38,009 nucleotides of DNA, taken from Giesbergeria sp. Lineage in GTDB: Bacteria; Pseudomonadota; Gammaproteobacteria; Burkholderiales; Burkholderiaceae_C. The notes under the pieces were generated by a model. It made no database searches. It worked only from the letters and a program-made list of their open reading frames with translations, and had not been told where the DNA came from. A program made the position numbers and the translations under genes. This document shows, piece after piece, positions 1 through 12,003 of the stretch (position 1 is the first letter of the stretch; each line of letters opens with the position of its first letter). The stretch lies in assembly GCA_023150295.1 (NCBI GenBank), contig JAKLLE010000034.1, forward strand, positions 1 to 38,009. Direction: 5' to 3'.

Positions 1-59
1 GGGTAGTATTCATGGGCGGGCACCAAGTTCAGACTTCGATACCCTGATCTTCCAGCCTT

Positions 60-410
60 TTGGGCGGTGCCCGCAACTTTTTTTGCGCCTCACGCAGAGG
101 CAAATTCGGCTGGGTTGAGGAATTCTGCAAGTCCCTCACCTATGTATCGCCCATGCAGTACGCAAACTACGACTGCGAACAACTGCGCTCCGAGTCCATG
201 CGCATCAGCGGGCGCGTCAACCAACTGACGGGCCGTTTGGATGAGGCTGCCAGCAACGACAAGGCGATCGCCGGCGTCGGCATCATTCTTTTTTGGCCTG
301 CACTCTTCGCACTGGGCGGCACCAAGCAGCAAGAAGCGGAGCTGTCACGCCTGAAGGGTGAATACGACGCGATTGAAGCGACGGCTACAACCAAGAAGTG
401 CGCAGCATGA
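60..410 (+). CDS. Small protein, probably 5'-truncated
   Basis: The reading frame opens at TTG 60 just after an in-frame TGA (45-47) and gives 116 aa. From about residue 28 onward (YVSPMQY, then YDCEQL) it looks like a small proteobacterial family in which a lipoprotein leader precedes that segment, followed by a helix, a hydrophobic stretch (GVGIILFWPALFAL) and a charged tail (RLKGEYDAIE). Here no lipoprotein leader is present: residues 1-27 are unlike a signal peptide. I infer that the original 5' end was replaced or lost by rearrangement. An alternative start is ATG 153. The gene overlaps the next one by ATGA (407-410), which suggests translational coupling. The function is unknown. Confidence 0.5.
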   Translation: MGGARNFFCASRRGKFGWVEEFCKSLTYVSPMQYANYDCEQLRSESMRISGRVNQLTGRLDEAASNDKAIAGVGIILFWPALFALGGTKQQEAELSRLKGEYDAIEATATTKKCAA

Positions 411-946
411 TGACCCGAGCCCTTCACCTGATAGCCGGCGCAGCTCTGCTGGCCTTGCTCGCAGGCTGCGCAACGCCCGCAGCAGTCAGCAACATGAGCG
501 TCTACACCAGCCAACGCACAGCGCCCACCTCGCTAAAAAACGCCATCTCCGTGGCAGATGTGACAGGTGGAAGGGAAACAAATCCGCTCTGGGTCTCGCA
601 GGTGTCCAGCGAAGCATTTCGCAGCGCGCTGGAGGATTCCCTGGCAAACGCAGGTATTTTCGAACGCGTACTGTCTGCCAGCAAATACCGGCTGACCGCA
701 AACCTGAACCAGCTGGAACAGCCTGCTTTTGGCATTGACATGACCGTGACTTCCACCATCAAGTACACCGTCGTCGATACCAGGACCGGCAAGGACGTGT
801 ACTCACGGTTGATCCGCGCACCCTTTACCGCTGGTTTTTCCGACTCGCCCATGGGGGCCACCCGGGTGCGCATTGCAACCGAGGGATCCATCAAGAAGAA
901 TATCGAGATGCTCATCAATGACCTGCTCATGATGAAGACCGATTGA
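407..946 (+). CDS. Putative lipoprotein of unknown function
   Basis: The product is 179 aa. ATG 407 is preferred over the upstream GTG 398 because it overlaps the preceding stop as ATGA. The N-terminus is a clear type II signal peptide: a basic start, then LIAGAALLALLAGC with the lipobox cysteine at about residue 21, so the mature protein should be lipid-anchored in the periplasm or outer membrane. The mature part reads as an alternating alpha/beta domain with strand-like segments such as IKYTVVDTRTGK and a C-terminal helix (NIEMLINDLLMMK). I do not recognise a catalytic motif. It probably forms a unit with the upstream small gene. Confidence 0.75.
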   Translation: MMTRALHLIAGAALLALLAGCATPAAVSNMSVYTSQRTAPTSLKNAISVADVTGGRETNPLWVSQVSSEAFRSALEDSLANAGIFERVLSASKYRLTANLNQLEQPAFGIDMTVTSTIKYTVVDTRTGKDVYSRLIRAPFTAGFSDSPMGATRVRIATEGSIKKNIEMLINDLLMMKTD

Positions 947-1024
947 TGTCTATCTCACCAGCGTGCTAAACAACGCAGCGCCACTTCCACCGTCACAGGA
1001 TGTCCTCCATGCGACAAGTACTAA

Positions 1025-1183
1025 AACCGTACAGACCAAACCTACGAACCGCTGGCAATGATCGGATACTGTGCTGTGGACCCGGACTACGACAGCCATG
1101 TGTTCCGCTCCTGTGAAATGGAGTCAGGTCCCTCACGGCAGGCGACCTACTTCTTTTCGACAGGCCAAGCACAGAGCGTTTGA
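1025..1183 (+). pseudogene. Possible gene remnant
   Basis: The frame is open from 1025 to the TGA at 1181-1183 and reads like a real protein C-terminus rich in Cys, Asp and Tyr (for example GYCAVDPDYDSH and FRSCEMESG). It has no convincing start; the only internal ATG is at 1058 and would give 41 aa. An in-frame TAA at 1022-1024 cuts it off from anything upstream. I infer the 3' remnant of a decayed gene between the two lipoprotein genes. It could also be a very small intact gene. Confidence 0.3.
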
Positions 1184-1197
1184 TTAACCATAATCGT

Positions 1198-2046
1198 ATG
1201 AAAAAAATCCGCAACTTTGTGGCCTCACTGACCGTGCTGGCCTTGACTGCATGTGGCGGCGGAAGCGACCCCGAACCATCAACTCCCAGCCCTTCAATGC
1301 CGGTCGTCGCCACCGAGGCCAGTCCGACACCCGAGGTGCCACCCTTAGCTCAACTGGAACCGGACGCCCCCTCTAACAATCTGGATTTGGCACCCAATAC
1401 CAGCTTCGCCACCAACAGCACGGCAACGTTTTGCGGTTACACCGTGCCATCAAAGTCCGTGACCGGGGTGGTTACGTCGGTGCACGATGGCGACACCATC
1501 AAGATTGGAGCCACCACCATCCGGCTGGATGCAATTGATGCCCCTGAGTTGGGCCAAACCTACGGCACCCAGTCGAGAGACAACCTGAAATCACTGGTCG
1601 AGGGCAAGTCCGTCACGGTGTACTACAGCAAGGTGGACAAATACGGCCGCACGGTGGGCTCCGTATTCGCCAGTGGCTGCACTTTTGCCAATCTGCAGCA
1701 GGTGCGCTCGGGTTCAGCATGGCACTACAAGCAATACCAGTGCGAGCAGCCCGCCGGCTTGCGGACAGCGTTTGCTGCTGCGCAGTCTGCCGCTGAATCC
1801 GCAGACTTGGGTTTGTGGGCTTTTGTGGCCACACCACCTTGGGTGTACCGCAACGGCACCGACTCGAATCCGCCCTCCTGCACCAGTGACGATCCGGTGT
1901 GGTACACCCCCGCAACCACCACACCAACAACTCCTGTAGTGACGCCCTACACACCAGTGACAGGCTGCAAAACGGTTTGGGTCAACGGCTACACCCGCAA
2001 GGACGGCACCAAGGTCAAAGGGCACTACCGGACGACGTGCTATTGA
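1198..2046 (+). CDS. Lipoprotein with thermonuclease (SNase-like) domain
   Basis: The product is 282 aa from ATG 1198; the frame extends up to TTG 1180, but MKKIRNF is the natural signal start. A lipobox LTAC places the modified cysteine at residue 19. A Pro/Ser/Thr-rich spacer (about 20-85) follows. The SNase domain (about 88-210) shows VHDGDT, TIRLDAIDAPE and DKYGRTVG, giving the expected catalytic Arg109, Glu117 and Arg151 by analogy with staphylococcal nuclease. A second Thr/Pro linker leads to a C-terminal GYTRKDGTKVKGHYR motif, of a kind I recall as a small tail module on many secreted proteins. The inferred role is a membrane-anchored extracytoplasmic nuclease acting on external DNA or RNA. 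It could aid nutrient use or degrade incoming DNA. Confidence 0.8.
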   Translation: MKKIRNFVASLTVLALTACGGGSDPEPSTPSPSMPVVATEASPTPEVPPLAQLEPDAPSNNLDLAPNTSFATNSTATFCGYTVPSKSVTGVVTSVHDGDTIKIGATTIRLDAIDAPELGQTYGTQSRDNLKSLVEGKSVTVYYSKVDKYGRTVGSVFASGCTFANLQQVRSGSAWHYKQYQCEQPAGLRTAFAAAQSAAESADLGLWAFVATPPWVYRNGTDSNPPSCTSDDPVWYTPATTTPTTPVVTPYTPVTGCKTVWVNGYTRKDGTKVKGHYRTTCY

Positions 2047-2074
2047 GTCGACGAGACAGGCTGTCGGCATTGGC

Positions 2075-2353
2075 TTACGCCGCCACCATGCGCAGCACCA
2101 CCGGGCGCGGCTGCTGCGCCGCCTGCCACAGGTCATAGGCGCTTTGTATGCCCAGCCACATTTCTGGACTGGTGCCCAGCAAGTCCGACAGGCGCAGCGC
2201 CATGTCGGCAGAAATGCCGGCGTGCCCGTGCAGGATGCGCGACAGGTAGGCGCGGGTCACGCCCAGCTGCGCAGCTGCCTGCGTGACGCTGACCTCGGCC
2301 AGCCATTCCTGCAGCACTGCGCCGGGATGGGGTGGGTTATGCATACGGCCCAT
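2075..2353 (-). CDS. higA: HigA-family antitoxin
   Basis: The product is 92 aa with an XRE-type helix-turn-helix (SVTQAAAQLGVTRAYLSRILHG, about residues 22-43) and the HigA/VapI hallmark N-terminus NPPHPGAVL. A strong Shine-Dalgarno AAGGAGG lies 6-7 nt upstream of the ATG at 2353, which supports this start over the internal ATG at 2344. It follows the toxin gene by only 12 nt, the usual toxin-first order of higBA. Known for the family: the antitoxin neutralises HigB and represses the operon by binding a palindrome in the promoter. A matching dyad is present at 2651-2671. Confidence 0.9.
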   Translation of the reverse strand: MGRMHNPPHPGAVLQEWLAEVSVTQAAAQLGVTRAYLSRILHGHAGISADMALRLSDLLGTSPEMWLGIQSAYDLWQAAQQPRPVVLRMVAA

Positions 2354-2365
2354 GGGGCACCTCCT

Positions 2366-2644
2366 TCAGTGGTAGTCCTGGTAATCCACCAGTTCGGCGT
2401 CAGTCCCCACAAAGCGGAAGGTCAGACGCCAGTTGCCATTGACGGTCACGGCCCAATGCCCGGCCAGATCGCCTTTGAGCGGATGCAGCTTCCAACCCGG
2501 CACGGCCATGTCTTGCGGCTGCGTGGCCTGGTCCAGCGAGCCCAGTTGCAACTGCAGCCGCTGGGCATGGTCGGGGCGAATGCCTGCCTTGCTGCCGCTG
2601 CAAAAAAACGCCTCAAGCCCTTTGTGCTGAAAACTGCGGATCAT
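2366..2644 (-). CDS. higB: HigB-family mRNA interferase toxin
   Basis: The product is 92 aa and belongs to the RelE/HigB fold (plasmid maintenance killer type). It starts MIRSFQHKGLEAFF and contains the conserved C-terminal core NGNWRLTFRF with the WRLTF segment typical of the family, ending in DYQDYH. HigB toxins cleave mRNA in the translating ribosome. The ATG at 2644 lies 6 nt from a perfect inverted repeat (2651-2671), so promoter and operator sit directly on the gene. higBA is divergent from the dynamin-like gene, with 98 nt between start codons, so the two units share this short control region. Confidence 0.88.
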   Translation of the reverse strand: MIRSFQHKGLEAFFCSGSKAGIRPDHAQRLQLQLGSLDQATQPQDMAVPGWKLHPLKGDLAGHWAVTVNGNWRLTFRFVGTDAELVDYQDYH

Positions 2645-2650
2645 GCGTCA

Positions 2651-2671
2651 TTGTATACAACATGTATACAA
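2651..2671. promoter_or_regulatory. HigA-type operator, perfect inverted repeat
   Basis: TTGTATAC and GTATACAA form a perfect 8-bp dyad separated by AACAT. It lies 6 nt upstream of the higB start codon and 71 nt upstream of the divergent GTPase start. HigA antitoxins are known to bind TTGTATACAA-like boxes, so this is the likely autoregulatory site. The embedded TATAC sequences could also serve as a -10 element. Confidence 0.7.
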
Positions 2672-2742
2672 ACTGCCGATGCATGGCTGCCGCTTTCCGT
2701 CCGATCACGAGCCCTCACGTTCAACCCGCAGGGAACACCACC

Positions 2743-5592
2743 ATGAGAACCCCCAAACAACTCCGACGCGATATTCAGGATCTGACCACGCATCTGACAC
2801 AGGTGCAGGGTGGGCTGGAGCGGCGATCCAGCATCAAGGTGGCAAAGATTGGCAAGGAGTGCCAGCGCAGCGCCACGGCTCTGGCGCAACTGCTGCAGAG
2901 CCAGCATGTGCCCACCGAATACAAGGTGGCGGTGGTGGGGCGTTTCAAGGCTGGCAAGTCGTCGTTTGTAAATGAGCTGCTGCCCAATAGACTGGCCAGT
3001 GAAGGCACGCTACCGGAAACCGCTGCGGTCACCACGTTCCGGCATGGTCAGAACGTGCGTGCCAGTATCCGATTCGTGAACAGCGCCGTGTGGCAGGAAC
3101 TGAAGTCTTTGTACGCGGAGAACCCAAAGCATGCGGATGCACAAAGGGTGCGTAGTTGGGAGAGCTTTCTGGTTCCCAAGAAAAACAAGGAGGGGGAACC
3201 GGACACGGTCTTCGACCTCGACAGCTTCGAGCGTGAATATGTACGCGCTGAGGGGCACTCCATTACCCTGGAATTGGCACCGCATTCCACCAAGAAAGCC
3301 GCCAACGACTTTCGAAAAAGGCTCAAGCAGTACACGTCTTCGGGAAGTCCGCTGCACTGCCTGGTCGACAGCATTGACATTACTGCACCGGCAGAAATAC
3401 TGGATCAGGGTGTGCTGCTGATCGACACACCCGGGTTGGACGACACCGAACGCTTCCGCGTGACCCTGACCGAGCGCGTGGTCACTGGCGTGGATGCGGT
3501 GCTGTTTCTCACCAAATCAGGGGCGTCATACGGCCAATCTGAAAAGGAATTCTTGCTTTCGCTGCTGCGCAAAGGAACGGTCAAACAGTTGATTGTGGTG
3601 GTGACGCAGATTGACGAAACCTATCACAAGGTACTCAAAGAGGCAGAAGACAACGACGAAGACCCGGAGCCAATCTCTGTGTGCATCGCCAGAGAGCGCA
3701 CCAAGATCAAGCGTGAAATTGAAGACACGCTGAAAGACCTGGATCAGGATGAAAGCCTGCATCGGTACCAGGAGCAGTTGGGCGAGGTGCCCATCGCCTT
3801 TACCTCAGCCCGATTGCACCGTGACTGGAAAGAGGGCAAGGAACTGCCGTTTGCGATCGACGCAAAAGACCCCGGTGGCATTGAAAAATTGACAGCGCAA
3901 TTGCTGCACTTGCTTTCTACGGAGTCCCGTCTTTCGCAGACTGCGGACAACATCGTCAAAGGGGCCAGCCACTGCTTGCTGGAACTTCAGTCAGTGCTCC
4001 AAACTAAGCTGAAGGCGCTGCAGAACACCCAGAACAAGGAGGTAGCTGAACAGAAGCTGGACACCTTTCGCAATGAATTTGGGCAGGCTCGCGAAGGGTT
4101 TACCGGGACTGTTGAGCAACAAATCAAGCTATTGAGCGCACGCCTGGCAGAGCAACCCCGACGGGATGAGACGCTGCTGAGTCTGATTGCTGCACACGCA
4201 GAACAACCACTTTCAGCGCTTGAGTCTGACGACATGGGCCGTCACTGGAAAACCCGCCGGTACGGTGGCTGGGGCTATCTGCATGGCATGGAAAGCAACG
4301 TTGCGGGTCTTATCTTTCCGAGGGTCCAACAACTGCTGGACACACGCACTAAGCTGTTCCAACAGTTCGGCAACCGGTTCAGAGAAGCGCTACAGCGCTT
4401 GTCGGATCAGAGTGATGCAATTGCCACCCAGATAGAGCTCGGTACCAGCGTACCACTGGACGTATCCGGCAAACTGACTGTGGTTCTCACACGTACGGAA
4501 GAGCGCGCGCAGGAGTTGATAGTGGTGGAAGAGCGCAAGGTTCACCAACTGCTGGACAATTTCGTCAGCGACAGTGTGGCAAACCGCATTGCCGAAAAAC
4601 GGCGCGTGGTGGCAGACATTTGGGACGTGGGTACGACCGCGCGGCAAAACACAGAAGTAAAAGACTTCTACCGGGAGGTCAAATCGCTGCTGAAAGAAGC
4701 CTTACAAAACCATCTGCAGGAAAGCGCACAGCGCTTTGGGGCGTTCTTGCTGGCAGAGGCCAAGACCGCCCCGCGAGATGCCTTGGACGAAGTACAGATA
4801 TTGCTGGAACAGGCGGCAGACAACATCCTCGCCGCCACCACGGAATATGTGGCAGGCCAGAAAGAAGAAGCCATTGGCGCCATTGCAGGCATTGATGAAG
4901 AACTGCAAGCGGTGTTGAAGCGCGTCGGTGTGGTAGCACCGAGTCTTGTGCCGCTGGCAGCAAGCCAGACTGAACAATCGCCCAACTGCAGCAACCTCCC
5001 CACGCCTACCACGAAACAACCACATTCCGCCCCAAATTTTGTAGAAGGCCCGGACTGGGCAGATGCTGTGCAGTCAGCCGCCACGGTGTGCGTTGCCCGC
5101 TTGCAGTTGCGCGAAAACTCTACGGGCTGGCCCTACGAAAAGATGTTCGCACCCCAGTTTTTGAAAGGAGCGCTGCAACTCTCGCTGGTGGAGCCCCATC
5201 TGTCCAAACCCAATCAGTTGCGCAACTTGCAAGAGTTTCTGATGCATGTGGCCGACGTTGCCAAACCAAAGGCCATCGAAATCATCACATTGCCCGCCGA
5301 TAAGGAAGCCGAAACGCAACAGGAACGACTGCTGGAAACGTTAACCAAGGATTTCTACCGAGAATTTGGAGTGGCGTTGACGCTGCGCCGGGAAGCGGGG
5401 CTGCATGACCGTCACTTACGGCTGAACCACGGGGTGCTGTTCAAACTGGGGCGTGGACTGGACATATACAAACCGGCCACTGGCTTGGCAATTCATCGTC
5501 CCGCCATCCGGCGCGTGCGTGCGTCTGAAATCGATGTGTTTGTGATCCCCGCGCATGCATTGGCACCACAGCCAGGAGCTGCCAATGCGTGA
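2743..5592 (+). CDS. Dynamin-like GTPase with MITD1-like C-terminal domain
   Basis: The product is 949 aa from ATG 2743, with AGGGA 8 nt upstream; the longer frame from 2662 runs through the higBA operator and is unlikely. GTPase domain: P-loop GRFKAGKSS (66-74), switch/G3 DTPGLDD (228-234) and G4 TQID (288-291), the dynamin pattern. Next comes a long helical region (about 400-740) expected to form the stalk, then a Pro/Thr/Ser linker (about 745-775). The C-terminal ~155 residues carry YEKMF, an LHDRHLRL segment (HDR at 888-890) and LGRGLDIYK (GRGLD at 903-907). I recall these as signatures of the MITD1 C-terminal PLD-like (MIT_C) domain, which binds membranes in eukaryotes. The gene overlaps the helicase-nuclease gene by 8 nt, so the two are probably translated together. 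The inferred role is a membrane-remodelling or sensing partner in a defence unit. The base composition looks more AT-rich than in neighbouring core genes. Confidence 0.85.
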   Translation: MRTPKQLRRDIQDLTTHLTQVQGGLERRSSIKVAKIGKECQRSATALAQLLQSQHVPTEYKVAVVGRFKAGKSSFVNELLPNRLASEGTLPETAAVTTFRHGQNVRASIRFVNSAVWQELKSLYAENPKHADAQRVRSWESFLVPKKNKEGEPDTVFDLDSFEREYVRAEGHSITLELAPHSTKKAANDFRKRLKQYTSSGSPLHCLVDSIDITAPAEILDQGVLLIDTPGLDDTERFRVTLTERVVTGVDAVLFLTKSGASYGQSEKEFLLSLLRKGTVKQLIVVVTQIDETYHKVLKEAEDNDEDPEPISVCIARERTKIKREIEDTLKDLDQDESLHRYQEQLGEVPIAFTSARLHRDWKEGKELPFAIDAKDPGGIEKLTAQLLHLLSTESRLSQTADNIVKGASHCLLELQSVLQTKLKALQNTQNKEVAEQKLDTFRNEFGQAREGFTGTVEQQIKLLSARLAEQPRRDETLLSLIAAHAEQPLSALESDDMGRHWKTRRYGGWGYLHGMESNVAGLIFPRVQQLLDTRTKLFQQFGNRFREALQRLSDQSDAIATQIELGTSVPLDVSGKLTVVLTRTEERAQELIVVEERKVHQLLDNFVSDSVANRIAEKRRVVADIWDVGTTARQNTEVKDFYREVKSLLKEALQNHLQESAQRFGAFLLAEAKTAPRDALDEVQILLEQAADNILAATTEYVAGQKEEAIGAIAGIDEELQAVLKRVGVVAPSLVPLAASQTEQSPNCSNLPTPTTKQPHSAPNFVEGPDWADAVQSAATVCVARLQLRENSTGWPYEKMFAPQFLKGALQLSLVEPHLSKPNQLRNLQEFLMHVADVAKPKAIEIITLPADKEAETQQERLLETLTKDFYREFGVALTLRREAGLHDRHLRLNHGVLFKLGRGLDIYKPATGLAIHRPAIRRVRASEIDVFVIPAHALAPQPGAANA

Positions 5593-8527
5593 TGAATCCC
5601 CCATGGCTCTGGCCAGCGGCCTGACCGCCCGCACGCAGCAGCTCTGCCTGGGCCTGGAGCATGGCGCCGCCGACCTACTGGAACTCGTCACGCCCACCAC
5701 AGCCGAGCTGCTGCTGTGGTGGTTTGGTCAGGATATGGTCGATACGCGTGGCGGGCTGAATTTTCACGCCGGGCAAAAGCAGGCCATCCTCAATGCCATC
5801 GTAGCGCACGAGGTGCTGGGCGCAGCCACGCTGCAGGACTTGTACCAGCAGGTAGCACCCGATGCGCTGCTGGCGGGCACCCGGCTGGCCGAGGTGTCTG
5901 CGGCCAAGCACGCGCACCCCAAGTACTGCTTCAAGATGGCCACGGGCACGGGCAAGACCTGGGTGTTGCAGGCGCTGCTGATCTGGCAACTGCTCAACAA
6001 AAATGCCGCGCTGGCCGAGGGGCTGGACGACGCGCGTTTTACGCGCCAATTCATGGTGGTAGCGCCGGGGCTGATTGTGTACGAGCGGTTGCTGGATGCG
6101 TTTTGTGGAAAACTGATAGCAGGGAGCGCAAGCGGGGCAAGGGATTTCGCCACTTCCGACATGGCACAGTTTGCCGACCTGTTCATCCCCGAGGCGCACC
6201 GCGATGCGGTGTTTGCCTTTGTGCGCGGCAACGTCTGCGGCAAGAGCGAAATCGGCTTGAAAGCCACGGGCAACGGCATGATCGCCATCACCAACTGGCA
6301 TTTGCTGGCCGAGGGCGAGGTGGTGGACGACGTGGAAGAGGTGGAAGCGCCCGGCGCGCCACTGGAGCCGCAGCAGGTGGTGAACGCCGTGCTGCCCCTA
6401 ACGCCCGGCCGCGCCACGGGCAACAGCCTGGACGTGCTCGACCGCCGCTATGCGCGCGGCAACGTGCTGGAGTTTCTGGCCGCTCTGCCTGAGCTGATGG
6501 TGTTCAACGACGAGGCGCACCACATTCACGAGTTCAAGCGCGAGGGCGAGGTGACCGAGGTGGAGTGGCAAAAGAGCCTGAGCCGGATCGCCGAAACCAA
6601 GGGCCGACGCTTTGTGCAGGTGGACTTTTCTGCCACGCCGTACAACGACGTGGGCAGCGGCAAGAACAAGAAGAAGCTGTACTTTGCGCACATCGTGACC
6701 GACTTTGACTTGAAGGCCGCAATGCGCGCCGGGCTGGTCAAGTCTTTGGTGCTGGACCGGCGCAAAGAGATAGGCGCATTACCGCTGGAGTTCAAAGCCG
6801 AGCGCGACGAGGCGGGCAACCCCGTGTTGAGTGAGGGCCAGCGCGTGATGCTGAGGGCCGGCCTCAAAAAGCTGCGCAAGCTGGAGGCGGACTTTGCCCG
6901 CATCGACCCCGCGCGCCACCCCAAGATGCTGGTGGTGTGCGAGGACACCACAGTGTCGCCCCTGGTCGCGCAGTTTCTGCAAGAGCAGGAAGGCTTGCAG
7001 CCGGACGAGGTGATGACGATTGACTCGGGCAAAAAAGCCGAACTGGGCGAGAAGGACTGGGCGCCCGTGCGCGAACGGCTGTTCAGCGTAGACAAACATG
7101 CCACGCCACGCGTGATCGTGAGCGTGCTCATGCTGCGCGAAGGCTTCGACGTGAACAACATTTGCGTCATCGTGCCGCTGCGCAGCTCGCAAGCGCAAAT
7201 TTTGCTGGAGCAAACCATTGGCCGGGGCCTGCGGCTGATGTGGCGCGACGCTGAATATGCCGACCTGAAACGCGAGAACCGCGAGCGCATCAACGCCGGG
7301 CAGGAACCGGCCAACCTGATCGATGTGCTGAGCATTGTCGAGCACCCGGCCTTCCAGTCGTTTTACGACGAGCTGCTGAAAGAAGGCGTGGCGGGCACCA
7401 CGGGCGACAGCATGGACGACACCTCCAGCACCGGCGACGTGATCGCCGCCGAGCTGCGCGAGGGCTTCGAGAAATTTGACTTCGGCATTCCATTCATCCT
7501 GCGCGAGGCGGACGAACTGCGGGGCCACGCCGCCGTGGATGTGCTGGCGCTGCCCGCCTTCACGGCGATGTCGGCAGACGCCTTGCGCGGCTTGCTGGGC
7601 AAGGGCGACACCTTCATCTCGCAAGACCTGCAAAGCGCCACACTGTTTGGCGACTACCGCGTCGATGGTGCGGTGATGAACGTGGGCGGCTACAACGATT
7701 ATTTGGCGCGCCTGACGCGGCGCATCAGCCAGGCGCTGAGCGAGCCATTGCCGAAGGGCAACAAAATTGCCACGCACCTGGCCAAGCCCTATTTGCAGGT
7801 CAACACCGCCGATTTGACTGGCTGGCTGGACGACTACATCTGGACGCGGCTGTTTGGCGCCGCCTTCAACCCGCTGGAGAACGAGAACTGGCGCCTGTTG
7901 CTGCTGCAGCCGGTGGTGGACCACATCACCAAGGTGTTTGCCGTGGCGCTGCTCGAATCCGAAGAGCAGCACCCTAGCGGCCACACCGAGGTGCAAGCGC
8001 GCTACCTGAGCGAAGTGCCGCGCCTGATGCTGCGCGAGGCCCATTCGGTGGAGGTGAGCAAGTGCATCTACACCCGCCTGGGCTGGCCCGCGCGCAATGG
8101 TGGGCTGGAGCGCGCGTTCATCCACTGGGCGCAGGCTGATAGCCAGGTGCTGGCGTTTTGCAAGATCAGCGATAACCGCCACACTTTTGCCCGCCTGCGC
8201 TATGTGAAGGACGATGGGCTGCCCGCGTTCTATTCGCCGGACTTTCTGGTGTGCACGGCCAGCGGGATTTTTCTGGTGGAAACCAAGGCGCAGCAGCAGG
8301 CCATTCACCCCAACGTGCAACGCAAACTGAAAGCGGCCATCGCGTGGTGCGAGCGCATCAATGCCTTGGCACCAGAACACCGGCAGGGCCTGCCCTGGCA
8401 TTACGTGCTGCTGGCCGAGAACGTGGTGCACGAATGGCAGTCCAAAGGGGCACACCTGGCAGAGTTGCTGGACTATGCAAGGCTGCGGCCACTGGCCAGC
8501 GCATCACTACAAGTCAGTTTGCTTTGA
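5585..8527 (+). CDS. Type III Res-like SF2 helicase / PD-(D/E)XK nuclease
   Basis: The product is 980 aa. ATG 5585 is chosen because AGGAG lies 6 nt upstream; the frame opens at 5555. SF2 motifs: Walker A ATGTGKT (119-125), DEAH (309-312), SAT (349-351) and motif VI QTIGRGLR (543-550). Near the C-terminus, PDF with Asp886, then a strand and ETK (899-901), match the D-(E/D)XK endonuclease site of type III restriction Res subunits. Res proteins translocate on DNA and cut it, normally only with a Mod methyltransferase. No Mod gene lies on either side: upstream is the overlapping dynamin-like gene and downstream is trhP. I infer an effector or DNA-processing subunit of a two-gene system. Residues around KLIAGSASGA (about 6112-6141) may be a degenerate copy of the local repeat. 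Confidence 0.88.
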   Translation: MRDESPMALASGLTARTQQLCLGLEHGAADLLELVTPTTAELLLWWFGQDMVDTRGGLNFHAGQKQAILNAIVAHEVLGAATLQDLYQQVAPDALLAGTRLAEVSAAKHAHPKYCFKMATGTGKTWVLQALLIWQLLNKNAALAEGLDDARFTRQFMVVAPGLIVYERLLDAFCGKLIAGSASGARDFATSDMAQFADLFIPEAHRDAVFAFVRGNVCGKSEIGLKATGNGMIAITNWHLLAEGEVVDDVEEVEAPGAPLEPQQVVNAVLPLTPGRATGNSLDVLDRRYARGNVLEFLAALPELMVFNDEAHHIHEFKREGEVTEVEWQKSLSRIAETKGRRFVQVDFSATPYNDVGSGKNKKKLYFAHIVTDFDLKAAMRAGLVKSLVLDRRKEIGALPLEFKAERDEAGNPVLSEGQRVMLRAGLKKLRKLEADFARIDPARHPKMLVVCEDTTVSPLVAQFLQEQEGLQPDEVMTIDSGKKAELGEKDWAPVRERLFSVDKHATPRVIVSVLMLREGFDVNNICVIVPLRSSQAQILLEQTIGRGLRLMWRDAEYADLKRENRERINAGQEPANLIDVLSIVEHPAFQSFYDELLKEGVAGTTGDSMDDTSSTGDVIAAELREGFEKFDFGIPFILREADELRGHAAVDVLALPAFTAMSADALRGLLGKGDTFISQDLQSATLFGDYRVDGAVMNVGGYNDYLARLTRRISQALSEPLPKGNKIATHLAKPYLQVNTADLTGWLDDYIWTRLFGAAFNPLENENWRLLLLQPVVDHITKVFAVALLESEEQHPSGHTEVQARYLSEVPRLMLREAHSVEVSKCIYTRLGWPARNGGLERAFIHWAQADSQVLAFCKISDNRHTFARLRYVKDDGLPAFYSPDFLVCTASGIFLVETKAQQQAIHPNVQRKLKAAIAWCERINALAPEHRQGLPWHYVLLAENVVHEWQSKGAHLAELLDYARLRPLASASLQVSLL

Positions 8528-8680
8528 TTTGCAATCAAAAATGTCTATGGCCCTTGGCGACTGAATATTCCTCACATTGCACCCTCATCGAACGTGCTGG
8601 CCTGCGCCTGGTCATAGCTTTCCGCCCTGTCTCGAGCCATCTCCACACAGCCCGGAGGTTCTGGCACACAATCACGCCCC

Positions 8681-10045
8681 ATGACCCTGAAAAGCCCCGA
8701 ACTGCTGCTGCCCGCAGGCTCGCTCGACAAGATGCGCGCCGCCTACGACTTCGGCGCCGATGCCGTCTATGCCGGCCAGCCGCGCTATTCCTTGCGCGCG
8801 CGCAACAACGAATTCCGCCTGGAGCAGATCCAGCAAGGCATCGAGGAAGCGCACGCGCGCGGCAAGAAATTTTTCCTCACCAGCAACCTGCTGGCGCACA
8901 ACGACAAGGTGCGCACCTACCTGCGCGACATCGAGCCCATCATCGCCCTGCGGCCCGACGCGCTCATCATGGCCGACCCTGGCCTGATCATGATGGTGCG
9001 CGAGAAATGGCCCGAGGCGGAAATCCACCTCTCTGTGCAGGCCAACACCACCAACTACGCGGCCGTGAAGTTCTGGCAGAAGGTGGGCGTCAAGCGCATC
9101 ATCCTCTCGCGCGAACTGAGCCTGGACGAGATTGCCAAAATCCGCCAGGAATGCCCCGACATGGAGCTGGAGGTGTTCGTGCACGGCGCGCTGTGCATCG
9201 CCTATTCGGGCCGCTGCCTGCTCTCGGGCTACTTCAACCGGCGCGACCCCAACCAGGGCACCTGCACCAATGCCTGCCGCTGGAACTACGCCACGCAAGA
9301 GGCCGCCGTGGATCCCAACACCGGCGAGGCCATGGCCCAGCGCATGGAGGGCGACTTCAACTTCAACCAGGCGCAGGAAGACGACAACGCCGCCTTCGCC
9401 TCGTGCGGCGGCGGCGAGCGGCATCCTCTGGCCGACAAGGTCTATCTGCTCGAAGAAAAAGAGCGCCCCGGCCAGCTCATGCCCATCATGGAGGACGAGC
9501 ACGGCACCCACATCATGAACAGCAAGGACCTGCGCGCCGTGGAGCATGTGCAGCGCCTGGTGGAGATTGGCGTCGATTCCCTCAAGATCGAAGGCCGCAC
9601 CAAGAGCCAGTACTACGTCTCGCGCACCGCGCAAATCTACCGCCGCGCCATCGACGACGCCGTGGCCGGTCGGCCGTTCAACCCCGAGCTCATCACCGAA
9701 CTCGAAGGCCTGTCCAACCGGGGCTACACCCCCGGCTTTCTGGAGCGCCGCCCCGCCAACGACTACCAAAACTACGAAACCGGCAGCTCCGAAGCGCGGC
9801 GCAGCCAGTTTGTCGGCGAGGTCAAGGCCGTGCAGGACGGCTGGGCCGAGGTGGAAACCAAGAACCGTTTCAATGTGGGCGACACGCTGGAAATCATCCA
9901 CCCCCAGGGCAACCGCCTGGTACAGCTCACACAGATGCGCGGCCTGGAGGGCGAGGAACTGCAGTTCGCCTCGGGCAGCCCGCTGCGCGTGCGCATTCCG
10001 CTGGAAGGGCCTGCCGAAGGGGCGTTGATAGCGCGTTTGCTATGA
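8681..10045 (+). CDS. trhP: tRNA 5-hydroxyuridine modification protein, U32 family
   Basis: The product is 454 aa, of the peptidase U32 family, YegQ/TrhP group. It begins SPELLLPAGSLDKMRAAYDFGADAVYAG-like and carries the U32 core with FVHGALCIAYSGRCLLSGY followed by a cysteine cluster (GTCTNACRWNY), consistent with an iron-sulfur site. Known for TrhP: it makes 5-hydroxyuridine at position 34 of tRNAs in a prephenate-dependent route that leads to cmo5U or mo5U. The gene stands alone, 153 nt after the helicase-nuclease gene, and marks the return to core chromosome. Its last codons run into a copy of the GCTAT-n7-ATAGC repeat, which supplies the stop region. Confidence 0.88.
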   Translation: MTLKSPELLLPAGSLDKMRAAYDFGADAVYAGQPRYSLRARNNEFRLEQIQQGIEEAHARGKKFFLTSNLLAHNDKVRTYLRDIEPIIALRPDALIMADPGLIMMVREKWPEAEIHLSVQANTTNYAAVKFWQKVGVKRIILSRELSLDEIAKIRQECPDMELEVFVHGALCIAYSGRCLLSGYFNRRDPNQGTCTNACRWNYATQEAAVDPNTGEAMAQRMEGDFNFNQAQEDDNAAFASCGGGERHPLADKVYLLEEKERPGQLMPIMEDEHGTHIMNSKDLRAVEHVQRLVEIGVDSLKIEGRTKSQYYVSRTAQIYRRAIDDAVAGRPFNPELITELEGLSNRGYTPGFLERRPANDYQNYETGSSEARRSQFVGEVKAVQDGWAEVETKNRFNVGDTLEIIHPQGNRLVQLTQMRGLEGEELQFASGSPLRVRIPLEGPAEGALIARLL

Positions 10046-10066
10046 TTTTTATAGCTGCTTGCGCTT
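10039..10066 (-). repeat. Short palindromic repeat, copy A
   Basis: GCTAT-gattttt-ATAGC (10039-10055) is followed by TGCTTGCGCTT. It overlaps the last two codons of trhP. Read on the minus strand it matches the short form AAGCGC-AGCAGCTAT-n7-ATAGC shared with copy F. Confidence 0.65.
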
Positions 10067-10131
10067 ATTTCACAGGCCAAAGTAGGATATTTCCTTCGTA
10101 ATCATGGTGTGCCTGGGGCATGGCGTCGAAC

Positions 10132-12003
10132 TCATGCGCCGCGCGCCCCCAACACCAGGGTCGCCATCAGGGCCGCCCACAGCAGCCAGCCCCAGCGCGG
10201 ACGGGAGTGTCCGGACTGAAGGCTGCGGCCTTGCCCGGGCGTGAAGCGACCGGCGCGGTCATGCCAGGCGCCTTGCAGCCATTGGGCGACGGCTTGCGCG
10301 CCTCCCTCGCCTGCCACGCCGGGGGTGATGCGCCTGGCCTTGGCGCCGTCGGCTTCGCGCGCCAGCACGGCGTGGTATTCCTGCATGGCGCCGCCCCCTG
10401 TGCTGGCCGAGTAGTTCAGCTTGGTGCTCAGGTGCTCCAGCGCACTGGGTGCCAGGCAATACTGCTGCGACCAAAGCCAGGACACCCGCTGCACCGCCAA
10501 CCCCTGGTCGTGTACCAGCACACGCCAGCGCCTGGTGGCGCGGTGCAGGATCAGCGCCAGCAAAACGCCCATGCCCCACAGGGGCCACGCGGTCCAGCGC
10601 TGTGGCAACGCAAGGCGGGGCGCCCATTCCTGCGCCCACAAGAACAGCAGCACGGCAAAGGGCAGCAGCAGCAAGGCCGCCACCCAGCGCGAGCCGGTCT
10701 GGGAAAACTCCAGCCCGCGGTAGTCTGCAGTCTCCACCGTGCCCGCCTGGGCGGGCCAATCGGACAGCCCCGCACCCTCGCCAGCCATGCTGACGGGGCG
10801 CTCCCGGTTCCAGTCGCTGCGCAGCGCAAAGCGGTCGTTGGCGCTGAGCGTGCTGCTGCCCTGCACCGCTACATCCTGCGACAGTTCCACCCCGCCGGAT
10901 TCACGCATCAGTTCCAGGCGCCAATCGACCCGTTCGCCGCTGCGGCGTGCGCCATGGGTGGGTGCATCGTCGGGCACGGTGAAACGTGCCACCAGGCGTG
11001 CACTGCCATCGGGCAGCGGCAGGGGCTGAACCTGCTGCTCCAGGTGTTCGACCAAGCGGCTGGATTCGCCCGAGCCCGAATCGGCCACGCGGTACTGCGC
11101 CAGCCGCAGCACCCGCGGCTGCTGCGCCCCGCCGCGCAGCGCGCGCGCGGGCAGGTGGAGCGAGACCTCCAGCGGCTCGCCCGCGCGCGGCGTGGAAGGC
11201 CGCAAGGCAACGGCCGTGTCGGCATGGCGCCAGGCCAGACGCGTCTGCCGGGCCGCCCAGGTCAGCAGGCCCATGCCAACCAGGACAAACAGCAGGAGAA
11301 ACGCCTTGGCAACCCAGGGGACATCTTGCGTCCAAAGCAGGCCCGCGATGGGAAACGACAGCCCACACCAGAACAGCGCAAAGAACCAGAGCATGCCCGC
11401 CGATTGGCGCGCCGACCGCCCCATGCGCTGAAGCCCAGCAGCCGCATCGGGCGCAGCAGCCTGTGCAGACTGGCCGCGCAGTGCCCGCAAGAACACCCAA
11501 CCCGCCGCCACCCCAACACCCGTGAACACCAACGCAAACGGCAGCCGGAACACCAGCATGGGCCAGCGGATGTGGGGATCCAGCAGCGCCTGCGCAGGCT
11601 GCTGGGGGTTGACCCAGGCCGTCACGCTCTGCCCGCTCGACAGGGCCGCCTGCAGTCGGCGGTGCCACTGGGCATGCCAGTCGCCCACGTTGTCGCGGTG
11701 GCCGTCGGCATCCAACCCCACCCGCTGCGATTCGAAGGTCTGCAGCCCCACCTGGTAGCGGTAGCGCACGCGCACGGCGTAGGTTTCGGTGCCCTCGCTG
11801 TCCCTATGGCTGTCCAACTGCGTCTCCAACACCTGGGCAGAAACGCTCTGCCACGAGCGCACCTCCCAGGCCGCCGCGAAGGTCTGGTACACGGGCTTGA
11901 GGCCCACAAAAAAGCCCCCAGCGCCAAACCCCAGGGCAAACAGAGCACTGAAAAGCAGGGTTCCGATACGAACCGCCCAGGAGGCATTGGCAGGTGTGCG
12001 CAT
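10132..12003 (-). CDS. DUF3592-like multi-pass membrane protein
   Basis: The product is 623 aa from ATG 12003 (MRTPANAS); the frame extends upstream, but the extension is not membrane-like. There are about seven hydrophobic segments: one near the N-terminus, a second after about residue 150, a pair around 220-275, a pair around 450-490 and one at the C-terminus. Between TM1 and TM2 lies a DUF3592-like extracytoplasmic segment (VRYRYQVGLQTFES). A larger soluble region sits in the middle (about 280-440). The family function is unknown; members are inner-membrane proteins. It is transcribed toward trhP. Confidence 0.7.
   Translation of the reverse strand: MRTPANASWAVRIGTLLFSALFALGFGAGGFFVGLKPVYQTFAAAWEVRSWQSVSAQVLETQLDSHRDSEGTETYAVRVRYRYQVGLQTFESQRVGLDADGHRDNVGDWHAQWHRRLQAALSSGQSVTAWVNPQQPAQALLDPHIRWPMLVFRLPFALVFTGVGVAAGWVFLRALRGQSAQAAAPDAAAGLQRMGRSARQSAGMLWFFALFWCGLSFPIAGLLWTQDVPWVAKAFLLLFVLVGMGLLTWAARQTRLAWRHADTAVALRPSTPRAGEPLEVSLHLPARALRGGAQQPRVLRLAQYRVADSGSGESSRLVEHLEQQVQPLPLPDGSARLVARFTVPDDAPTHGARRSGERVDWRLELMRESGGVELSQDVAVQGSSTLSANDRFALRSDWNRERPVSMAGEGAGLSDWPAQAGTVETADYRGLEFSQTGSRWVAALLLLPFAVLLFLWAQEWAPRLALPQRWTAWPLWGMGVLLALILHRATRRWRVLVHDQGLAVQRVSWLWSQQYCLAPSALEHLSTKLNYSASTGGGAMQEYHAVLAREADGAKARRITPGVAGEGGAQAVAQWLQGAWHDRAGRFTPGQGRSLQSGHSRPRWGWLLWAALMATLVLGARGA

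Follow-up and report, generated by a model that had tools for sequence, protein, structure and literature searches.

Contig JAKLLE010000034.1 of Giesbergeria sp. (assembly GCA_023150295.1; the whole 38,009-nucleotide stretch is referred to here as the window) carries two overlapping genes, one for a dynamin-like GTPase (DYN) and one for a Res-like helicase-nuclease (RES), which a sequence-only reading had put forward as a candidate two-gene anti-phage system. Our analysis points to a different arrangement, in which the segment represents what is left, at the 3' end, of a type III-like mod-[cargo]-res operon whose methyltransferase gene, mod, has been destroyed, and in which DYN serves methylation-based immunity as an accessory or backup effector. 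We give this reading a probability of roughly 60 %. The two genes would then be two parts of such an operon rather than a unit of their own. The earlier proposal is thus partly supported: what it observed was correct, its two-gene interpretation largely was not, and a more interesting family appears to stand behind DYN.

The assignment of RES comes from its neighbours. In a family sample of 299 genomes, 64 showed some match to RES at E ≤ 0.001 and 17, including the source genome, held most of it, defined as at least 50 % identity over at least 600 residues. Mod was found upstream of RES in 14 of the 16 other genomes in this set, the two exceptions being G038, with 397 bp of contig upstream of RES, and G065, with a RES split in two and a 13.3-kb contig in which no Mod match was found (G labels denote family genomes, and L labels the loci or records examined). 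A methyltransferase gene, split in L003, also lies directly upstream of RES in all five plasmid loci opened, and in Limnohabitans T6-5 (L008) Mod is intact, with 725 amino acids and a PADLOC MTase_III match of 3.2e-70. Because Mod precedes it in the 14 family genomes and the five plasmid loci, RES is assigned, as far as sequence and gene order can tell, to a type III-like mod-res operon as its Res subunit. It resembles type III restriction-modification (RM) systems in its match to REase_III and in that its homologues directly follow Mod; the window differs from them in retaining only a fossil of Mod and in having DYN between mod and res.

RES itself matches Pfam ResIII (3.8e-10) and PADLOC REase_III (9.2e-25) and contains a DEAH box. 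At residues 868-925 it weakly resembles a TnsA-like nuclease, slightly under the cutoff (1.5e-5; 25.9 of the required 26.5 bits), and all six aligned sequences have D886, E899 and K901. The nuclease fold is a prediction from this sequence motif, the AlphaFold model of RES being of too low confidence for use (pLDDT 30). The description of RES as a helicase-nuclease is upheld by the ResIII match and by the invariance of the PD-(D/E)XK residues. Membership in the BPTD_3080 restriction endonuclease family was rejected, at 181.9 bits against an NCBIfam cutoff of 800 (E 1.6e-53).

What remains of mod in the window is a stretch overlooked by the sequence-only reading, which aligns to nucleotides 1939-2003 of the Limnohabitans mod gene (blastn, 81.5 % over 65 bp, E 3e-12; tblastn, 17 of 23 amino acids, E 7e-6) and which also matches mod of L064 and L070. 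The genes for an SNase-domain protein, HigBA and DYN now separate this fossil from its former res. A search of the source assembly (3.69 Mb, completeness rated at 100 %) revealed no cognate Mod at another site. Among the candidates, the best reached 40 % over 248 amino acids and 47 % over 104 with the L008 Mod as query, and up to 49 % over 245 with that of G230; all of them, including the 47 % candidate near the edge of contig C51, were rejected as too unlike cognate Mods, for which the yardstick is the 90-97 % that the L008 Mod has in common with five Mods of the family at residues 86-189. A type III enzyme requires Mod and Res together, a combination present in L008 and absent from the window, and it is on Mod that type III Res depends for DNA recognition. 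Because Mod is lost and a type III Res needs it, the window RES is probably no longer able to restrict sequence-specifically. If so, any activity that remains in this genome would be that of DYN, which is itself probably uncoupled here from sequence-specific restriction.

Three loci carry both DYN and RES, namely the window, L008 with an intact mod-DYN-RES order, and G313, which was found through DYN, lies outside the family sample and holds a piece of mod (residues 2-52), a DYN shortened before its C-terminal MIT_C domain and an intact RES. DYN stands beside RES in none of the 16 other sample genomes that hold most of RES, and RES is missing from the fetched flanks in eight of the 11 DYN loci. 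In a 20-row RES tree the three rows with DYN do not form one clade, supported branches forcing at least three changes, and the sister of L008, with support 100/100, is G260, a mod-RES locus without DYN. On these neighbour counts and this tree the conserved, dedicated two-gene unit was rejected; the sequence-only reading had itself named a lack of joint conservation as the outcome that would speak against the pair, and this is largely what is found. DYN may owe its distribution to three separate gains, to one old insertion with recombination swaps, or to a gain and losses. Two other parts of the proposal fared better: no system equal to the pair is named in the PADLOC-DB of 2023, and the link to defence is supported.

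At the junction of the two genes, RES overlaps DYN by 8 nucleotides (ATGCGTGA), and a Shine-Dalgarno sequence, AGGAG, stands 6 nucleotides before the RES ATG within DYN, both as previously described. There is an alternative in-frame ATG at 5555, and the Shine-Dalgarno sequence favours 5585. The overlap fits co-translation; it says little for a bond between DYN and RES, because the RES of G260 overlaps mod likewise, mod there running directly into RES with an ATGA-type overlap at the mod stop. In the G313 locus (L062, DYN at 8293-10575), DYN is without MIT_C and yet overlaps RES by 4 nucleotides.

Comparison of the mod-res junction among relatives suggests where DYN may have come in. The alignment ends of mod and RES are at most 66 nucleotides apart in seven of the 14 family genomes with both. 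The gap holds an inverted higBA in G176 and G196, ParDE-like genes in G057, a phosphoribosyltransferase-like gene in G230 and G027 (4.4e-4 and 2.7e-5, both short of the Pfam cutoff), and in G291 ParDE-like genes together with a HigA of 84.8 % amino acid identity to that of the window; in G214 it measures about 340 nucleotides. DYN would accordingly count as one of the cassettes that entered this junction. The mod-res gaps of L064-L071 appear as a recurrent insertion place for inverted toxin-antitoxin modules and phosphoribosyltransferase-like genes.

DYN is, as had been recognised from its sequence, a dynamin-like GTPase. It matches Pfam Dynamin_N (4.8e-21) and contains the P-loop (G66-R-F-K-A-G-K72-S), D228-T-P-G and T288-Q-I-D motifs; M1 aligns with the first M in nine homologues, and the frame stays open upstream as far as 2662. 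The GTPase motifs and a helical stalk are seen through sequence, the AlphaFold model (pLDDT 71, pTM 0.40) and Foldseek, in which the best matches to the model were SynDLP, the dynamin pair 5owv/5oxf, BDLP, IniA and LeoA. Judging from the model, DYN has the same G domain and long helical stalk as the bacterial dynamin-like proteins SynDLP, BDLP, IniA and LeoA; it differs from them in its added C-terminal MIT_C and in that no strongly hydrophobic segment was found in it. A conserved aromatic/basic stretch at about residues 497-512 falls where the model has low confidence. PADLOC gives matches to LeoA (3.1e-6, residues 18-81) and LeoBC (2.6e-5), which we take to be the system named Eleos and with which DYN has the dynamin G domain in common. 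The LeoA and LeoBC dynamins are encoded side by side. Membership of DYN was rejected, since the matches are weak and partial, no second dynamin is adjacent, and the neighbours are RES and HigBA.

The MIT_C end of DYN had also been overlooked. Apart from its Pfam match, it aligns with the C-terminal part of the PADLOC BrxL model (2.4e-20) and with human MITD1 (phmmer, 1.5e-14), and the end of the DYN model resembles the MITD1 C-terminal domain in Foldseek (TM-score by target length, 0.76-0.78 with three chains and 0.56 with two others of greater length). The H and R of its motif are invariant in ten of ten DYN sequences, and the last position is D in six, N in three (window, L008, L013) and G in one (L011). 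The catalytic H-x-K-x4-D of PLD/HKD proteins is absent, R replacing K in all ten. Nuclease activity of the window MIT_C is doubtful because the last motif position varies and is N in the window. BrxL with a C-terminal HKD-type (HRD) domain and human MITD1 have MIT_C and the H-x-R-x4-(D/N) motif in common with DYN, which differs in joining MIT_C to a dynamin and in its N at position 895. PMC12839542 describes BrxL-HKD with the HRD form, which H888-x-R890-x4-N895 of DYN resembles, and the BrxL domain matched by DYN may well be that HKD domain.

Substitutions among DYN sequences are fewer at nonsynonymous sites (pN 0.18-0.22) than at synonymous sites (pS 0.75-0.77), the latter being saturated so that no omega is given, and DYN appears to be under purifying selection. 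Its GC content is 50-56 % against 60-66 % for RES in all three DYN-RES loci, and it is more diverged than RES, for which codon bias may account in part. We take DYN to belong to a family of bacterial dynamins that is rare and mobile and carries a BrxL/MITD1-type MIT_C.

Our analysis covered eleven DYN loci: the window, eight from a scan of genome contigs, one on a plasmid, and G313. The scan used two peptide patterns only, and the family may have more members. In seven of the 11, DYN lies within or next to a locus of methylation-based defence, this being a raw count without chance expectation from a small sample, in which three of the seven are related type III-like cases and two have a broken Mod. 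These seven are the window, L008 and G313 (type III-like), L009 (BREX-1), L011 (DUF499/DUF1156), and L013 and L014 (Hma-type). The 16.5-kb piece examined of L009 reads brxA-brxB-brxC-DYN-pglX, and L011 reads DUF499-DUF3780-DUF1156 methyltransferase-PLD helicase-DYN, a gene set that corresponds to the Type-2 BREX-related systems of PMC12839542. In L013 an HmaB-like and an HmaA/BrxHI-like helicase gene directly precede DYN and an HATPase gene follows it. The gene after DYN in L013 (12829-14796, HATPase-type by Pfam) and that in L014 (12495-14810) give the same partial PADLOC match to a type II restriction enzyme.

A PD-Lambda-2-like gene pair lies directly upstream of DYN in L012, and L001 is annotated with toxin-antitoxin genes and an Rpn-family nuclease gene. 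L010 (10001-17170), L011 (10001-17177) and L015 (10001-17080) carry DYN followed by a gene of about 370 codons, one of 411-445 codons and an Hsp70-like gene, the last assignment resting on L010; the protein of about 370 residues shows a zinc-finger-like pattern by eye, and the two middle proteins of the L010 operon had no Pfam or PADLOC match. In overlapping samples of 369 genomes from the class, 398 from the phylum and 399 from the order, searches at E ≤ 1e-30 or 1e-40 gave no member besides that of the source genome, and in another search seven of nine DYN-matching genomes were left out as partial matches (six to the MIT_C end, one to residues 30-410). A phage or viral origin of DYN was rejected, as there was no phage match and two scans of viral contigs, with two peptide patterns each, confirmed no relative. 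No description of the DYN family or of this pattern was found in titles and abstract openings of the open-access literature, among the matches listed.

On the preferred reading, higBA, DYN and other accessory cassettes would have entered the mod-res junction, and mod would then have been destroyed to leave its 65-bp fossil, with DYN and RES staying intact. The dynamin part of DYN may assemble with GTP on a membrane or a partner, MIT_C may be a module for binding lipid, nucleic acid or a partner, and DYN as a whole would act as a second arm when the primary restriction is engaged or blocked. By analogy, its genetic logic would resemble that of PrrC, a protein linked to a type I RM enzyme. PMC12839542 reports that BREX and related loci contain numerous nucleases acting as backup effectors; such auxiliary or backup effectors and PrrC are, like DYN, accessory genes tied to methylation systems, and unlike DYN they are nucleases. 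Within the main text of that paper the words 'dynamin' and 'GTPase' do not occur. None of the BREX core proteins BrxC, PglX and PglZ was found among seven window proteins with Pfam and NCBIfam, PADLOC covering DYN and RES. More tentatively, and with appreciably less confidence than in the reading of the window itself, dynamin-MIT_C GTPases may be an unnamed portable arm recruited by type III-like RM, BREX-1 and DUF499/Hma-type systems, giving these systems a backup response driven by GTP and possibly linked to the membrane when restriction is under way or blocked, with a C-terminal module common to BrxL and the ESCRT-associated MITD1.

A number of observations weigh against the reading of a broken operon with DYN as its accessory. 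Omega of RES between the window and eight relatives is 0.12-0.18, without relaxation, so that either the loss of mod was recent or RES has another use. The DYN and RES frames overlap in all three loci (by 8, 4 and 4 nucleotides), and mod is broken in two of them (the window and G313), which might mean that DYN and RES function as a pair. Hydropathy is at most 1.6 in every 19-residue window of ten DYN sequences, and membrane binding is at most putative. As for the family, besides the raw nature of the count given above, a methyltransferase-based system was not seen at four of the 11 loci (L001, L010, L012, L015), the 784-amino-acid frame before the HmaB-like gene in L013 has no PADLOC match, so that the Hma set is incomplete, and the HmaC, HmaB and WYL matches in L014 are on the strand opposite to DYN.

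These points bear on three alternatives, each of which we consider unlikely. The segment may be a decaying remnant of no present function, the operon having been inactivated by the loss of mod with DYN and RES awaiting decay; decay is indeed seen in relatives, with RES fragments in G270, G012 and G068, the divided RES of G065 and the truncated Mod and DYN of G313, but in the window both frames are complete, the motifs are intact and divergence is mostly synonymous, although a recent loss of mod is still compatible with this. Slightly less probable is a true two-component, Mod-independent defence system in which mod was lost as dispensable. It would account for the overlapping frames in three of three loci, the broken mod in two of three and a RES that is intact and under purifying selection, but L008 retains its complete Mod, most DYN loci are without RES in the fetched flanks, the RES sequences accompanied by DYN are not one clade, the two genes are unlike in composition and divergence, the ATGA overlap at the RES start occurs without DYN in G260, and it is established that type III Res requires Mod. 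Equally improbable in our estimate is that recombination placed DYN in a cassette hotspot as an unrelated passenger, functionally unconnected with restriction. This agrees with the higBA, ParDE-like and weakly matched phosphoribosyltransferase-like cassettes of the junction, but the mod-res hotspot alone is insufficient to explain a family that is also found within a BREX-1 operon and next to Hma-type and DUF499/DUF1156 genes.

If DYN is a common accessory of several unrelated methylation-based systems, a second response would be added at the stage of blocked or ongoing restriction, and bacterial dynamins would become linked to DNA restriction. The mod-DYN-res and mod-res loci of close relatives provide a clean natural comparison for the contribution of the dynamin. 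The presence of MIT_C in DYN, BrxL and MITD1 raises a question, open to test, about where a module of eukaryotic cytokinesis came from and what it does.

Table 1. Features of the accessory segment and its border, in window coordinates.
Feature	Position	Strand	Evidence
mod fossil (C-terminal part, type III-like methyltransferase gene)	1046..1110	+	blastn/tblastn against Limnohabitans mod
SNase-domain lipoprotein-like nuclease gene, between mod fossil and higBA	1198..2046	+	Pfam SNase 1.9e-17
higA antitoxin, inverted cassette	2075..2353	-	TIGR02607 2.1e-29
higB toxin	2366..2644	-	Pfam HigB-like_toxin 9.4e-19
Inverted repeat, candidate HigA operator	2651..2671	.	perfect 9+9 nucleotides, TTGTATACA/TGTATACAA; operator role putative
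DYN, bacterial dynamin-like GTPase with C-terminal MIT_C/PLD-like domain, 949 amino acids	2743..5592	+	Pfam, AlphaFold, Foldseek
MIT_C domain of DYN, residues 795-933, H888-x-R890-x4-N895	5125..5541	+	Pfam PF16565 4e-22
RES, Res subunit (superfamily 2 motor and C-terminal PD-(D/E)XK motif), type III-like RM, 980 amino acids	5585..8527	+	
Border of accessory segment against conserved trhP flank	8644	.	blastn, 8 same-genus genomes

The gene order in the window is mod fossil - SNase - higBA (inverted) - DYN - RES (Table 1), and the core gene trhP stands at 8681, 3' of RES, so that the neighbours named previously, higBA and a surface nuclease gene on one side and core genes on the other, were correctly identified. 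The accessory character of the segment was also borne out by comparison within the genus, for which 20 genomes were searched, 18 had a trhP match and eight of these were fetched. In all eight, window-like sequence upstream of trhP begins at 8644 or later (blastn), the first aligned base being 8644 in three and later in five, and no part of window positions 1-8643 was found in about 10 kb upstream of trhP. The window differs from all eight at this site, which may be a variable chromosomal site. A scan of 900-8700 for sigma-70 promoters and terminators gave results close to shuffled expectation and was not used. The repeat at 2651-2671 lies between the divergent higB and DYN, and its position suggests that HigA might control DYN-RES too.

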